39,786 bases of DNA from an uncultured Eubacteriales bacterium (lineage in GTDB: Bacteria; Bacillota; Clostridia; Peptostreptococcales; Anaerovoracaceae), in the NCBI GenBank assembly GCA_902774265.1, contig CACYHR010000028.1, positions 1-39,786 on the forward strand, read 5' to 3'. The notes below the pieces were generated by a model. That model was not told where the DNA came from, searched no databases, and was given only the letters and a program-made list of their open reading frames with translations. The stretch's first letter is position 1, and every line of letters begins with the position of its first letter. Position numbers and translations under genes: made by a program. This document shows positions 9,114 to 12,205 of the stretch, in pieces.

Positions 9114-9165
9114 ACGAATCAAGCACGTACTTTGTTTAAAACAACAAAAAATTATAAAAAACCGG

Positions 9166-9194
9166 TTGACATTGACAACAAAGATTGTTATATT
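9166..9194 (+). promoter_or_regulatory. Consensus promoter of the metNIQ operon
   Basis: A perfect TTGACA (9166-9171), exactly 17 bases of spacer and TATATT (9189-9194) would start RNA near 9201, at the foot of the 5' hairpin. Confidence 0.8.
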
Positions 9195-9204
9195 AACAAA
9201 CGAA

Positions 9205-9249
9205 CCGGAGAACAGGGCAAAAAGATGGACAGATCCTGACATTCTCCGG
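9205..9249 (+). other. 5' hairpin of the metNIQ leader RNA
   Basis: CCGGAGAA (9205-9212) pairs with TTCTCCGG (9242-9249), extended by CAGG (9213-9216) with CCTG (9235-9238). It would lie at the very 5' end of the transcript and upstream of the leader peptide ribosome site. It has no U-tract, so a stabilising or sensing role is more likely than termination. Confidence 0.55.
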
Positions 9250-9286
9250 ATGATCAAACCTTATTCTATGAAAGGAGCACATTCAC

Positions 9287-9364
9287 ATGACATACAGAAA
9301 AATGATGATGGAAATGGGAATGATGGGCATGTGCATGTGCAGAGCCGGTAATAGCATAGGATAG
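9287..9364 (+). CDS. Methionine-rich leader peptide of metNIQ (25 residues)
   Basis: The ATG at 9287 has AAAGGAG 8 bases upstream, better than the site of metN itself. It opens a 25-codon frame with nine methionines and two cysteines, densest in KMMMEMGMMGMCMC (residues 5-18), ending at TAG 9362-9364. The gene lies between the consensus promoter and the methionine-importer genes, 69 bases before metN. Runs of codons for the pathway's amino acid upstream of its transport or biosynthesis operon are the hallmark of leader peptides that sense charged tRNA by ribosome stalling. The downstream RNA (9370-9426) can fold into hairpins next to the metN start. No SAM riboswitch or T-box motif is visible. 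The coding call rests on sequence only. Confidence 0.75.
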   Translation: MTYRKMMMEMGMMGMCMCRAGNSIG

Positions 9365-9369
9365 GGTCA

Positions 9370-9426
9370 TAACGAAGCCGATACTATGAGTTTTCTCATG
9401 TTGCATAGTCAGAGGGCAGGTCGTTA
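9370..9426 (+). other. Foldable RNA between leader peptide and metN
   Basis: TAACGA (9370-9375) pairs with TCGTTA (9421-9426), with GCC/GGC just inside. The interior holds ACTATG (9383-9388) with CATAGT (9404-9409), or alternatively ATGAG/CTCAT (9386-9390, 9395-9399), which shares bases with it. The outer stem ends 8 bases before the metN ATG and abuts its weak ribosome site. A ribosome reaching the leader stop would cover the left arm. No U-tract follows, so translational or Rho-dependent control fits better than intrinsic termination. Confidence 0.5.
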
Positions 9427-9433
9427 GAAGAGT

Positions 9434-10486
9434 ATGACAGAAAACATAATCAGTCTTCAAGGGGTCACAAAGGAATTCGAGACCAGAAACGGTAAAGTGG
9501 TCGCCCTTAAAGACATCAACCTTGACATCGCGCCGGGCGATGCATACGGAATAATCGGACTGTCCGGTGCCGGCAAATCAACACTGGTCAGGACGATCAA
9601 TCTGCTAGAACAGCCTACAGAAGGCAAGGTCATATTTGACGGGAGCCTGCTGACGGGACTGAACAGCCGCGAACTTAACCTGCACAGGCGCAAAATCTCA
9701 ATGATATTTCAGCAGTTCAATCTGCTGATGCAGAGAGACGCGATAGGCAATATCTGCTTCCCGCTTGAGATCGCAGGAGTACCGAAGAGCGAAGCAAGAG
9801 CCAAGGCGGAAGAACTTCTCAAAGTCGTAGACCTCGAGGACAGAGCGCATTCATATCCTTCGCAACTGTCCGGAGGACAGAAACAGAGAGTCGCAATAGC
9901 AAGAGCTCTCGCGTCGGACCCGGATGTGATTCTCTGCGATGAAGCGACATCGGCCCTCGACCCTAAGACGACGAGATCGATACTCAAGCTTCTCAAAAAA
10001 ATCAATGAAGAACGCGGGATCACCCTGGTAGTGATCACCCACGAGATGGACGTCATCAGACAGATATGTACGAAGGTGGCTGTCATCGAAAACGGTGAAA
10101 TCGTAGAGAGAGGCGATGTCGGGGAAGTGTTCGCAAAACCTAAATCCAAGGCAGCCCGCAGGCTCTTCTTCCCGGACGGACGCGACAGAGAAACTGCCGT
10201 AGGCAGGACTTCAACGAGAAACCGTGTCAGACTCGTTTTCGACGAATCGAATGCATACAAGCCAATCATCGCGAACATGATCACAGAACTCGGCGCACCG
10301 GTCAATTTCTTTTACGCAGACCTGGATGTACTCGGCAACAAACAAAAAGGTCAGATGGTCATATGTCTGTCGGAGGACAGGGCTATGGCCGAGAAACAAA
10401 AAGAGTATCTTCGCAGAGAACGCGTTGAGGTAACTGAACTGACAGATGATATTGATGATCTTTTGCAGGAGGAGGGAGAAGCGTAA
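9434..10486 (+). CDS. metN: Methionine ABC transporter ATP-binding protein
   Basis: The 350-residue ATPase energises MetI for import of methionine. Walker A GLSGAGKST is at residues 42-50, the Q-loop at IFQQFNLL, the signature LSGGQKQRVAIARAL near 145-159 and Walker B VILCDEATSALD near 166-177, followed by the switch His in VVITHEMD. After residue 265 comes the NIL domain of MetN proteins, which in the E. coli homologue binds methionine and inhibits transport from inside the cell. Its presence separates MetN from other amino-acid ATPases. The start has a weak AGAAGAG site that lies beside the leader fold, consistent with control by the leader. It overlaps metI by one base (TAATG). Confidence 0.95.
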   Translation: MTENIISLQGVTKEFETRNGKVVALKDINLDIAPGDAYGIIGLSGAGKSTLVRTINLLEQPTEGKVIFDGSLLTGLNSRELNLHRRKISMIFQQFNLLMQRDAIGNICFPLEIAGVPKSEARAKAEELLKVVDLEDRAHSYPSQLSGGQKQRVAIARALASDPDVILCDEATSALDPKTTRSILKLLKKINEERGITLVVITHEMDVIRQICTKVAVIENGEIVERGDVGEVFAKPKSKAARRLFFPDGRDRETAVGRTSTRNRVRLVFDESNAYKPIIANMITELGAPVNFFYADLDVLGNKQKGQMVICLSEDRAMAEKQKEYLRRERVEVTELTDDIDDLLQEEGEA

Positions 10487-11148
10487 TGGATACACATACA
10501 CTGGTAAGCCTCCTCTGGGAGGGAACACTGCAGACCCTGTATATGACTCTGGTCGCTACACTGGTGTCATATCTGATAGGACTTCCGGTAGGAGTTTCGC
10601 TCATAGTTACAGGTCCTAACGGTATCAGGCCGGTCGGCATATACAACAAGATCATGGGCTTCATCGTGAATGTGGTCAGATCGGTACCATTCCTCATACT
10701 CATGATTGCATGCATGCCTTATATACGTAAGATCATCGGCACGGGTATAGGAACATCGGCAACTACAGCCGCACTGATCATAGCAGCATGGCCGTTCGTA
10801 GCAAGAATGGTGGAACAGTCACTTCTCGAAGTCGACCCGGGAGTCATCGAAGCGGCACAGGCAATGGGAGCAAGCAATATGCAGATAGTATTGAAAGTAC
10901 TTCTCCTTGAAGCCAGACCTTCATTGATGAACGGCGCTGCAGTCGCTACAATCACCATACTCGGCTACTCGGCGATGGCCGGAACGCTCGGAGGCGGCGG
11001 ACTCGGAGACATAGCCATCAGATACGGGCACTACAGATTCCAGCCGACAATAATGTGGATAACAATAGTCGTGCTGGTGATACTGGTCCAGATAATGCAG
11101 GAAATAGGTATCAAGGCTGCAGCAAAGCTTGACAACAGGATCAGCTAA
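10486..11148 (+). CDS. metI: Methionine ABC transporter permease
   Basis: The 220-residue permease has about five membrane helices and the cytoplasmic EAA loop that docks to the ATPase (EAAQAMGASNMQIVLKVLL, near residues 124-142). The N-terminal LWEGTLQTLYMTLVATLVSY and the late GTLGGGGLGDIAIRYG are characteristic of MetI-type permeases. It forms a homodimer with MetN in the membrane. The ATG overlaps the metN stop as TAATG, with GGAGGGAGAAG upstream inside metN, so the two are translationally coupled. metQ follows after 208 bases. Confidence 0.95.
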   Translation: MDTHTLVSLLWEGTLQTLYMTLVATLVSYLIGLPVGVSLIVTGPNGIRPVGIYNKIMGFIVNVVRSVPFLILMIACMPYIRKIIGTGIGTSATTAALIIAAWPFVARMVEQSLLEVDPGVIEAAQAMGASNMQIVLKVLLLEARPSLMNGAAVATITILGYSAMAGTLGGGGLGDIAIRYGHYRFQPTIMWITIVVLVILVQIMQEIGIKAAAKLDNRIS

Positions 11149-11356: not shown

Positions 11357-12205
11357 ATGAAGAACATCAAAAAGACAGGAATCATCGCATTGCTTCTCGT
11401 ACTCGTACTCGGTATACTGACCGCATGCGGCGGCGGATCTGACAGCGGAGAAAGCGCAGACACTGAAGACAGCGCAGATAAGACGATCAAGGTGGCAGCA
11501 TCGCCTACACCGCACGCAGAGATCCTCAATTCTATCGCTGATGCTCTCGCAGCAGACGGATGGACACTCGAAGTAGTTGAATTCGATGACTATGTACAGC
11601 CGAACGTAGCTACAACAGACGGAGATGTAGATGCCAACTATTTCCAGCACGTTCCATATCTCGATCAGTACAATGATGAGAACGGCACAGATCTCGTAGC
11701 AGTAGGAAATGTACACTATGAGGCAATGGGCGCATATAAAGGAACAAAGGATTCATTCGACGCTCTCGAGGAAGGCGACCAGATCGGAGTTCCTAACGAT
11801 GTTACAAACGAGGCAAGAGCTCTGCAGCTGCTCGCAGCAAACGGAGTAATCACACTCAAGGACGGCGTCGGACTCGAAGCAACAAAGACAGATATCGTAG
11901 ACAATCCAAAGGGCATTGAAATCGTAGAACTCGAAGCTGCATCAATCCCTGGAGCACTTCCTGACCTCGCAGTAGGCGTAATCAATGCAAACTATGCACT
12001 CGGAGCAGAGCTGACAGTTGACGATGCTATCGCATATGAAGCAGAGGATTCAGAAGCTGCTGAAACATATGTAAACGTTATCGTTGTAAATGCAGGCAAC
12101 GAGGAAAGCGAAAAAACACAGGCTCTGGTAAAGGCTATCCAGACAGATGAAGTCAAGAAATTCATCGAAGATCAGTACAAGGGCGCAGTTCAGGCTAAAT
12201 TCTAA
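11357..12205 (+). CDS. metQ: Methionine-binding lipoprotein (NlpA/MetQ family)
   Basis: The 282-residue protein starts with a lipoprotein signal peptide: positive N-terminus, leucine/valine-rich core and lipobox LTAC with the lipidated cysteine at residue 24. A Gly/Ser/Asp/Glu linker precedes the NlpA fold, with ASPTPHAEILNSI, DGDVDANYFQHVPYLDQYN and IGVPNDVTNEARALQLL, all typical of D/L-methionine-binding MetQ proteins. It captures methionine outside the membrane and delivers it to MetNI. AAAGGAG lies 8-9 bases before the ATG. A strong terminator at 12251-12288 ends the operon. Codon use (GCA, GAA, ATC rich) suggests high expression. Confidence 0.95.
   Translation: MKNIKKTGIIALLLVLVLGILTACGGGSDSGESADTEDSADKTIKVAASPTPHAEILNSIADALAADGWTLEVVEFDDYVQPNVATTDGDVDANYFQHVPYLDQYNDENGTDLVAVGNVHYEAMGAYKGTKDSFDALEEGDQIGVPNDVTNEARALQLLAANGVITLKDGVGLEATKTDIVDNPKGIEIVELEAASIPGALPDLAVGVINANYALGAELTVDDAIAYEAEDSEAAETYVNVIVVNAGNEESEKTQALVKAIQTDEVKKFIEDQYKGAVQAKF

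Follow-up and report, generated by a model that had tools for sequence, protein, structure and literature searches.

Attenuators of the trp, his and leu type consist of a short open reading frame (ORF) rich in codons for the cognate amino acid and, after it, an intrinsic terminator, both standing before an operon for that same amino acid. For Firmicutes, accounts of methionine control usually centre on SAM riboswitches and T-boxes. The closest precedent found for a leader peptide at a methionine importer is metL of Streptomyces lividans TK24, a leader peptide upstream of metNIQ that is proposed to act as an attenuator (PMC8079986), and the literature searched, with subscription papers and preprints mostly outside it, yielded no other Met leader-peptide attenuator among the titles and abstract openings listed. 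In bacilli, a His leader peptide has been described at hisS/hisZ, together with sensor switching in which T-box and leader peptide replace one another, and methionine transporters are reported to have a T-box (PMC2965389); the accessible text of that paper holds nothing on Met codons, metN or Met-rich sequences.

The window, by which we mean the whole stretch of 39,786 nucleotides that was analysed, comes from an assembly (3.26 Mb in 110 contigs) of the genus Candidatus Crickella, which are gut bacteria. NCBI taxonomy places this genus in the Anaerovoracaceae (Peptostreptococcales), to which the family of the window is accordingly assigned. It carries a Met-rich ORF ahead of an importer operon, with the following features:

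9131 to 9148, + strand: conserved palindrome-like element TTTGTTTAAAACAACAAA (TTTGTGAAAAACAACAAA), 5′ of the −35 box
9166 to 9194, + strand: sigma-70-type promoter TTGACA-17-TATATT, 11 of 12 consensus matches, with TG preceding the −10 box
9271 to 9277, + strand: Shine-Dalgarno (SD) sequence AAAGGAG of the leader ORF, read from the sequence and invariant across the 24 rows of alignment A1
9287 to 9364, + strand: Met-rich leader peptide ORF of 25 codons, translation MTYRKMMMEMGMMGMCMCRAGNSIG, nine Met
9434 to 10486, + strand: metN, methionine importer ATPase (best NCBIfam match TIGR02314, 339 bits, below cut-off)
10486 to 11148, + strand: metI, importer permease (NCBIfam NF008049, 197.7 bits, below cut-off)
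11357 to 12205, + strand: metQ, substrate-binding lipoprotein (NCBIfam NF008285 and TIGR00363, both below cut-off; best MetQ match 186.1 bits)

The identities of the three genes were taken from their best NCBIfam matches, all under the curated cut-offs, and from gene order, and they place the leader 5′ of an operon for the amino acid whose codons it carries. In our reading, the metNIQ 5′ leader is most likely a ribosome-mediated transcription attenuator for methionine that responds to the charging of Met-tRNA. Like the trp, his and leu attenuators, it joins a cognate-rich ORF with an intrinsic terminator (in relatives of the window) before the cognate operon; it differs from them in that its cognate amino acid is also the initiator, in that one arm of a helix, the 5′ arm of P1 (see below), lies upstream of the leader SD and, as far as modelling goes, perhaps in polarity. 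It resembles S. lividans metL, which is likewise a short Met/Cys ORF (...CMCRRMCAF) upstream of metNIQ, whereas metL has 29 codons with few Met, a leaderless transcript and no typical Rho-independent terminator (PMC8079986). That peptide is reported from one genome of another phylum, while the Crickella leader is Met-dense, has an SD, is followed by terminators in relatives and is found genus-wide. As with the His leader of bacilli, a Firmicute leader peptide stands in for another sensor, which there is the T-box; the bacillar leader senses His (PMC2965389), whereas the Crickella leader has Met codons and stands where sister families have SAM riboswitches.

An earlier note, made from the window alone, had described a consensus promoter before metNIQ and a 25-codon ORF with an AAAGGAG site and nine Met codons, and each of these was found again, the promoter as TTGACA-17-TATATT at 9166-9194 and the others within 9271-9364. 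Met occupies codons 1, 6, 7, 8, 10, 12, 13, 15 and 17 of MTYRKMMMEMGMMGMCMCRAGNSIG, which also has two Cys, and the window leader thus combines an SD-preceded ORF with an enrichment in cognate codons, as amino-acid attenuators do. In a survey of ORFs of 12-48 codons on both strands of the whole window, nested starts counted, it had the highest Met density of 1374, with eight Met in the 14 post-start codons; the best ORF unrelated to it had four, and the maximum in each of 20 triplet-shuffled windows was 3 or 4 Met per 14 codons. The survey and the shuffled windows rule out chance as the source of this density. A promoter-like match was also present in all 27 leaders scanned, namely those with an SD motif, and an element similar to TTTGTTTAAAACAACAAA in 26 of the 27; its end lies 14-18 bp 5′ of the −35 box in 25 leaders and 4 bp in L030. 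The element, counted in leaders from the window and L002-L030 with a loose pattern composed after inspection of the sequences, may serve as an operator or as an UP element.

We then consider conservation within the genus. MetN matches were found in all 60 relatives searched, some of them a distant ABC ATPase only. At 30 metN loci, the window included, leader ORF and SD were intact in 27; contig ends truncate the leaders of L006 and L020, and the start region is missing from L009. The Met-rich frame, which the earlier note had expected homologous metN leaders to share, is kept. A covariance model, R1, built from 24 of the 30 loci (L004, L006, L009, L010, L020 and L028 were excluded as truncated or deleted), matched 44 of the 47 genus genomes; of the three misses, G002 has its leader cut by a contig end, and in G007 and G011 the best MetN match is a distant ABC ATPase. 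Against a sample of 393 genomes of the order, with nine candidates scored per genome, R1 matched 26 genomes, all of the genus Candidatus Crickella, and gave no match outside it.

A set of 45 distinct leaders was collected by their Met core, so that conservation of the core is built into it. In 43 of them the start codon that follows the SD shares the reading frame of the core, and the N-terminus varies by whole codons, with 10 to 13 codons 5′ of the core; the remaining two lack the region of the start. The stop codon lies directly 5′ of CATAGG in 29 of the 45. The nucleotide sequence of the core hardly varies, and Met has a single codon, which leaves little room for synonymous substitution in the frame. 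As a pattern, the core was found in 48 stretches, in genome records entitled, for example, Candidatus Crickella, Mogibacterium sp. or Clostridiales; where a title gives a host, it is goat, sheep, water buffalo or horse. All but one (47/48) carry the leader ORF; the start region is missing from L108, and L082 and L113 are truncated where their contigs end. The match in L091 (Prevotella) was set aside as chance in an unrelated coding stretch. L105, labelled Oscillospiraceae, has both a Crickella leader and a Crickella metN and is therefore probably a misassigned contig. The core pattern had no match in viral contigs. The closest relative of the window is L002, with a MetN 94% identical.

Two conserved helices, P1 and P2, enclose or overlap the ORF, and a further hairpin precedes them:

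9205 to 9249, + strand: extra 5′ hairpin CCGGAGAA/TTCTCCGG of the window copy, from window folds
9260 to 9270, + strand: 5′ arm of P1, CTTATTCTATG, pairing with 9355-9365
9277 to 9289, + strand: 5′ arm of P2, GCACATTCACATG, over the SD end and the start codon, pairing with 9328-9340
9316 to 9328, + strand: loop stretch GGGAATGATGGGC, invariant in the 24 rows of A1, synonymous Gly sites included
9328 to 9340, + strand: 3′ arm of P2, CATGTGCATGTGC, comprising the MCMC codons, with covariation in alignment A2
9355 to 9365, + strand: 3′ arm of P1, CATAGGATAGG (P1 being CTTATTCTATG with CATAGGATAAG), with covariation in A2

In A2, P1 (11 pairs) was paired in 99.6% of cells and P2 (12 pairs) in 100%, each with two pairs showing two-sided changes. 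Over the 22 distinct rows the two helices together had 99.3% of cells paired and four two-sided pairs, a result reached by 0 of 500 shuffles; slid controls had at most 53.4% of cells paired, and the −2 control, at 50.1%, yet showed three two-sided pairs. In the window fold, P1 formed with all but its innermost pair, and P2 was not the minimum-energy pairing. One A-U pair of P2 has become G-C in L007, L027 and L029, turning a Cys codon into Arg, which indicates that structure overrides Cys there. The earlier note had suggested that the Cys codons may add sulfur status; Cys beside Met recurs in other genera, whereas the Crickella Cys codons sit in a base-paired helix and one of them gives way to Arg in these three leaders. 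Alignment A1 has 24 rows, L001, L004, L006, L009, L010 and L020 being excluded; its invariant stretch GGGAATGATGGGC belongs to no supported helix, and G012 differs there. The divergent leaders of G005, G031 and G061 seemingly do not keep P1, as judged by eye, and in L028 the 5′ arm of P1 is deleted, naturally or in assembly. The 5′ hairpin CCGGAGAA/TTCTCCGG is absent from the two relatives aligned with the window (L002 and L003); the earlier note had missed it, as it had the intrinsic terminator of the relatives, which the window has lost.

Downstream of the ORF, the aligned Crickella relatives have a variable hairpin, P3, and then an intrinsic terminator, with the following counterparts in the window:

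9370 to 9379, + strand: 5′ strand of a candidate antiterminator, TAACGAAGCC, from the window fold
9384 to 9388, + strand: candidate alternative pairing P4, CATAG of the P1 3′ arm with CTATG, a weak inference
9386 to 9399, + strand: site of hairpin P3 (ATGAG-TTTT-CTCAT) of relatives, from folds of L003 and L002, its sequence varying between subclades
9413 to 9427, + strand: intrinsic terminator remnant (5′ arm and loop), from alignment with L002 and L003

In the window fold, ACUAUG/CAUAGU takes the place of P3. Compared with L002, three things are missing from the window: the 3′ arm of the terminator, the U-tract and the spacer that usually precedes metN. The terminator between ORF and first gene that characterises attenuators is present in the aligned Crickella relatives, and the window keeps only its 5′ arm and loop. 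The loss is either natural, leaving the gene possibly constitutive or metN under translation control, or an assembly deletion. The antiterminator candidate pairs 9370-9375 with 9421-9426 and 9377-9379 with 9415-9417 in the window fold, and most of the Crickella relatives modelled showed a similar pairing (UAACGA:UCGUUA) when folded as truncated transcripts. The register GGUC..GACC, the first that was tested, is just part of the antiterminator story: 94.4% of its cells were paired, with two two-sided changes, 9 of 500 shuffles scored as high and a control slid by +3 gave three two-sided changes, and the sequence covariation for it is weak. A UCUAAC/GUUAGA or CUAAC/GUUAG complement occurs at the matching position in three divergent Crickella leaders and in two other genera; in one of these leaders, G288, the pair had almost no weight in the model. 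In L004 and L010, the segment between leader stop and terminator is deleted, again naturally or in assembly.

The wider distribution of Met leaders was obtained by inspecting metN upstream regions and not from R1. In the order, 84 metN-like upstreams were inspected, a set that includes some metN genes placed after metQ or of uncertain start, and L168, a second MetN-like locus of a Crickella genome. A Met-rich ORF, holding four or more Met within 14 codons, was present in 20 of the 84; among the controls, 5 of 1680 mononucleotide shuffles and 1 of 84 reverse strands had one. These 20 leaders represent 12 other genera, with 18 among 47 loci of the Anaerovoracaceae (family f1) and two among six of a second family (f2); the other 29 metN-like loci of the Anaerovoracaceae have no Met-rich ORF. 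At the class level (40 loci), G472 and G664 carried five or more Met within 14 codons, the SD of G472 being unclear; G545, G759 and G718 were chosen by eye for their SD and Met/Cys content, and L247 and L251 reached four Met without a convincing SD or position. The 20 order-level leaders, the weaker L177 and five class-level ones (G472, G664, G545, G759 and G718) make up 26 candidates outside Crickella, and an intrinsic terminator of −11 kcal/mol or better lies between ORF and metN in 25; the lone exception, L179, has a hairpin with a T-rich tail that fails the terminator rule. As a control, 3 of 260 shuffled 150-nt segments reached −10 or better, in a two-base-block shuffle and with real segments that differ in length. 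The earlier note had recognised the ordinary pattern of amino-acid leader peptides and proposed attenuation, and the attenuation reading is strengthened by the terminators of the relatives and by these Met-rich leaders in other genera. The dipeptide MC occurs in 21 of the 23 Met-leader peptides listed from other genera, and also in the Streptomyces metL peptide.

A search of Rfam, including matches with E up to 5, returned no family for the window leader, and neither the SAM-I riboswitch (RF00162) nor the T-box (RF00230) matched there or at 14 relatives. Either element is thereby ruled out at the window leader, in agreement with the earlier note, in which neither had been visible. At Rfam gathering thresholds, no SAM riboswitch or T-box matched any of the 20 order-level Met-leader loci or the 33 of 47 Anaerovoracaceae loci that were run. 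In the other families of the order, where 35 of 37 loci were run, a SAM riboswitch occupied the same place before metN at 24 and a T-box at two. The class-level loci, of which 22 of 40 were run, gave one T-box and no SAM riboswitch, with no match at the Met-leader loci among them, so that the SAM contrast holds only within the order. There, codon-based and SAM-based sensors seem to replace one another at metN.

According to the attenuator model, stalled ribosomes most likely signal methionine shortage through the leader. We infer that the leader is translated, that it senses Met-tRNA, that the response has the polarity set out here and that P1, P4 and the antiterminator compete. The Met-rich ORF would be translated behind RNA polymerase. 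With Met-tRNA scarce, the ribosome would stall in the Met run or fail to initiate, and the antiterminator (UAACGA..CC with GG..UCGUUA) could then fold between ORF and metN, allowing metNIQ to be transcribed. With Met plentiful, the ribosome would read on to the stop codon, located at the P1 3′ arm or immediately 5′ of it, and the GC-rich intrinsic terminator downstream would form and end transcription. P2, in which the leader SD and start would pair with the leader's own Met-Cys codons, probably limits re-initiation.

Ten relatives were folded with ribosome footprints masked, the transcript ending after UCGUUA (first end) or after GACC (later end). Without a ribosome, the antiterminator core had a probability of at least 0.78 in 8 of the 10 at the first end, and in those 8 it stayed at 0.73 or above with a ribosome in the Met run; at the later end, without a ribosome, it exceeded 0.78 in 4 of 10, within a range of 0.17-0.98. 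With the P1 5′ arm masked, P4 rose to at least 0.6 in 5 of 10 relatives and the antiterminator fell to no more than 0.12 in 7 of 10 at the first end; by the later end the antiterminator was back at 0.7 or above in 8 of 10. With a ribosome at the stop codon, the antiterminator was at least 0.5 in 6 of 10 (first end) and 9 of 10 (later end). In five divergent leaders the antiterminator strand starts 1-14 nt 3′ of the stop; a ribosome there lowered the antiterminator in G031 and G061, left it the same in G005 and made it more probable in G336; for G288 the value was about zero throughout. In full-length RNA, modelled for three sequences, the terminator won wherever the ribosome was placed. Equilibrium folding therefore neither explains nor proves the polarity, given the results for the stop codon and for full-length RNA. 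P4 as an off-switch and the stop-codon ribosome as a blocker of the antiterminator were both modelled with mixed results and are not claimed.

The formation of the antiterminator without a ribosome suggests a default-ON design, as a hypothesis, and such a design would fit methionine, with which translation also begins. Tentatively, and with a good deal of doubt, one may go further and see here a class of default-ON Met attenuators with a combined Met and Cys sensor that, in several lineages of Clostridia, took over from SAM riboswitches at metNIQ. Both the untranslated state, with P1, P2 and the antiterminator, and the stalled state would then give readthrough, since methionine starvation also starves initiation, and full translation of the leader alone would give termination; the interleaved Met and Cys codons would sense both sulfur amino acids.

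The strong nucleotide conservation, which extends to synonymous sites and to the GGGAATGATGGGC loop in the 24 rows of A1, and the covariation of P1 and P2 could also be those of a conserved RNA, with P1/P2 and the terminator forming a riboswitch for Met or SAM and the Met-rich frame being incidental. We regard this as very improbable: the N-terminal length changes are of whole codons, the stop stands directly 5′ of CATAGG in so many leaders, the leaders of other genera differ in sequence and retain Met-rich ORFs, and Rfam has no match. A nascent peptide that arrests in the exit tunnel and senses a metabolite (Met, SAM or Cys), in place of codons that sense tRNA charging, would fit the recurrent Met-Cys adjacency, that is, the MC dipeptide of the listed peptides; it is improbable in that the peptides of other genera are alike in composition with little fixed sequence, and Cys positions have become Arg in L007, L027 and L029. 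Composition of the MxM and MCMC kind resembles copper-binding stretches, and it is this resemblance that speaks for a functional, metal-binding Met/Cys-rich micropeptide co-transcribed with metNIQ. Such a product is extremely improbable, as the ORF lies upstream of metN with a terminator between them in nearly all of the candidates outside Crickella, its termini vary and RNA helices constrain its codons; leader copies away from metN were sought with R1 and the core pattern only.

For the genome of the window alone, and compatibly with Met-tRNA-dependent attenuation in its relatives, attenuation may have been lost, so that an antiterminator-like fold controls the translation of metN or the gene is constitutive. 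We see the chances here as evenly balanced. The terminator 3′ arm and U-tract are absent from this copy, and in the fold of the window the antiterminator strands are paired immediately 5′ of the metN start; against this, the copy comes from a single draft assembly in many contigs, in which a deletion by assembly is possible.

Of the 47 genus genomes, one has a MetH activation domain, in a search that covered MetH bearing that domain, and a MetE catalytic domain was likewise found in one; the genus probably relies on imported methionine. SAM riboswitches are present in 44 of the 47, and in the genome of the window one precedes metK. T-box matches were found in 36 of the 47, three above the cut-off, and one lies directly 5′ of thrS in the window's genome. 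An importer with an apparent codon-based sensor and a metK with a SAM riboswitch thus occur in the same genome, and readouts of charged tRNA and of SAM may be divided between import and use. Since Met is the initiator, a Met leader also raises a question absent from trp-like systems, that of starved initiation, and the several genera provide natural variants.

Some Crickella assemblies contain more than one leader copy. Two leader copies per assembly were seen in G017 (contigs C46 and C83, C46 ending inside metN) and G018 (contigs C31 and C90), which reflect a strain mixture or duplication. In L005 and L006, a decayed second Met-rich leader copy lies between terminator and metN (G016:C3:28583-28682 and G019:C145:3125-3224, respectively), which suggests tandem duplication of the leader.
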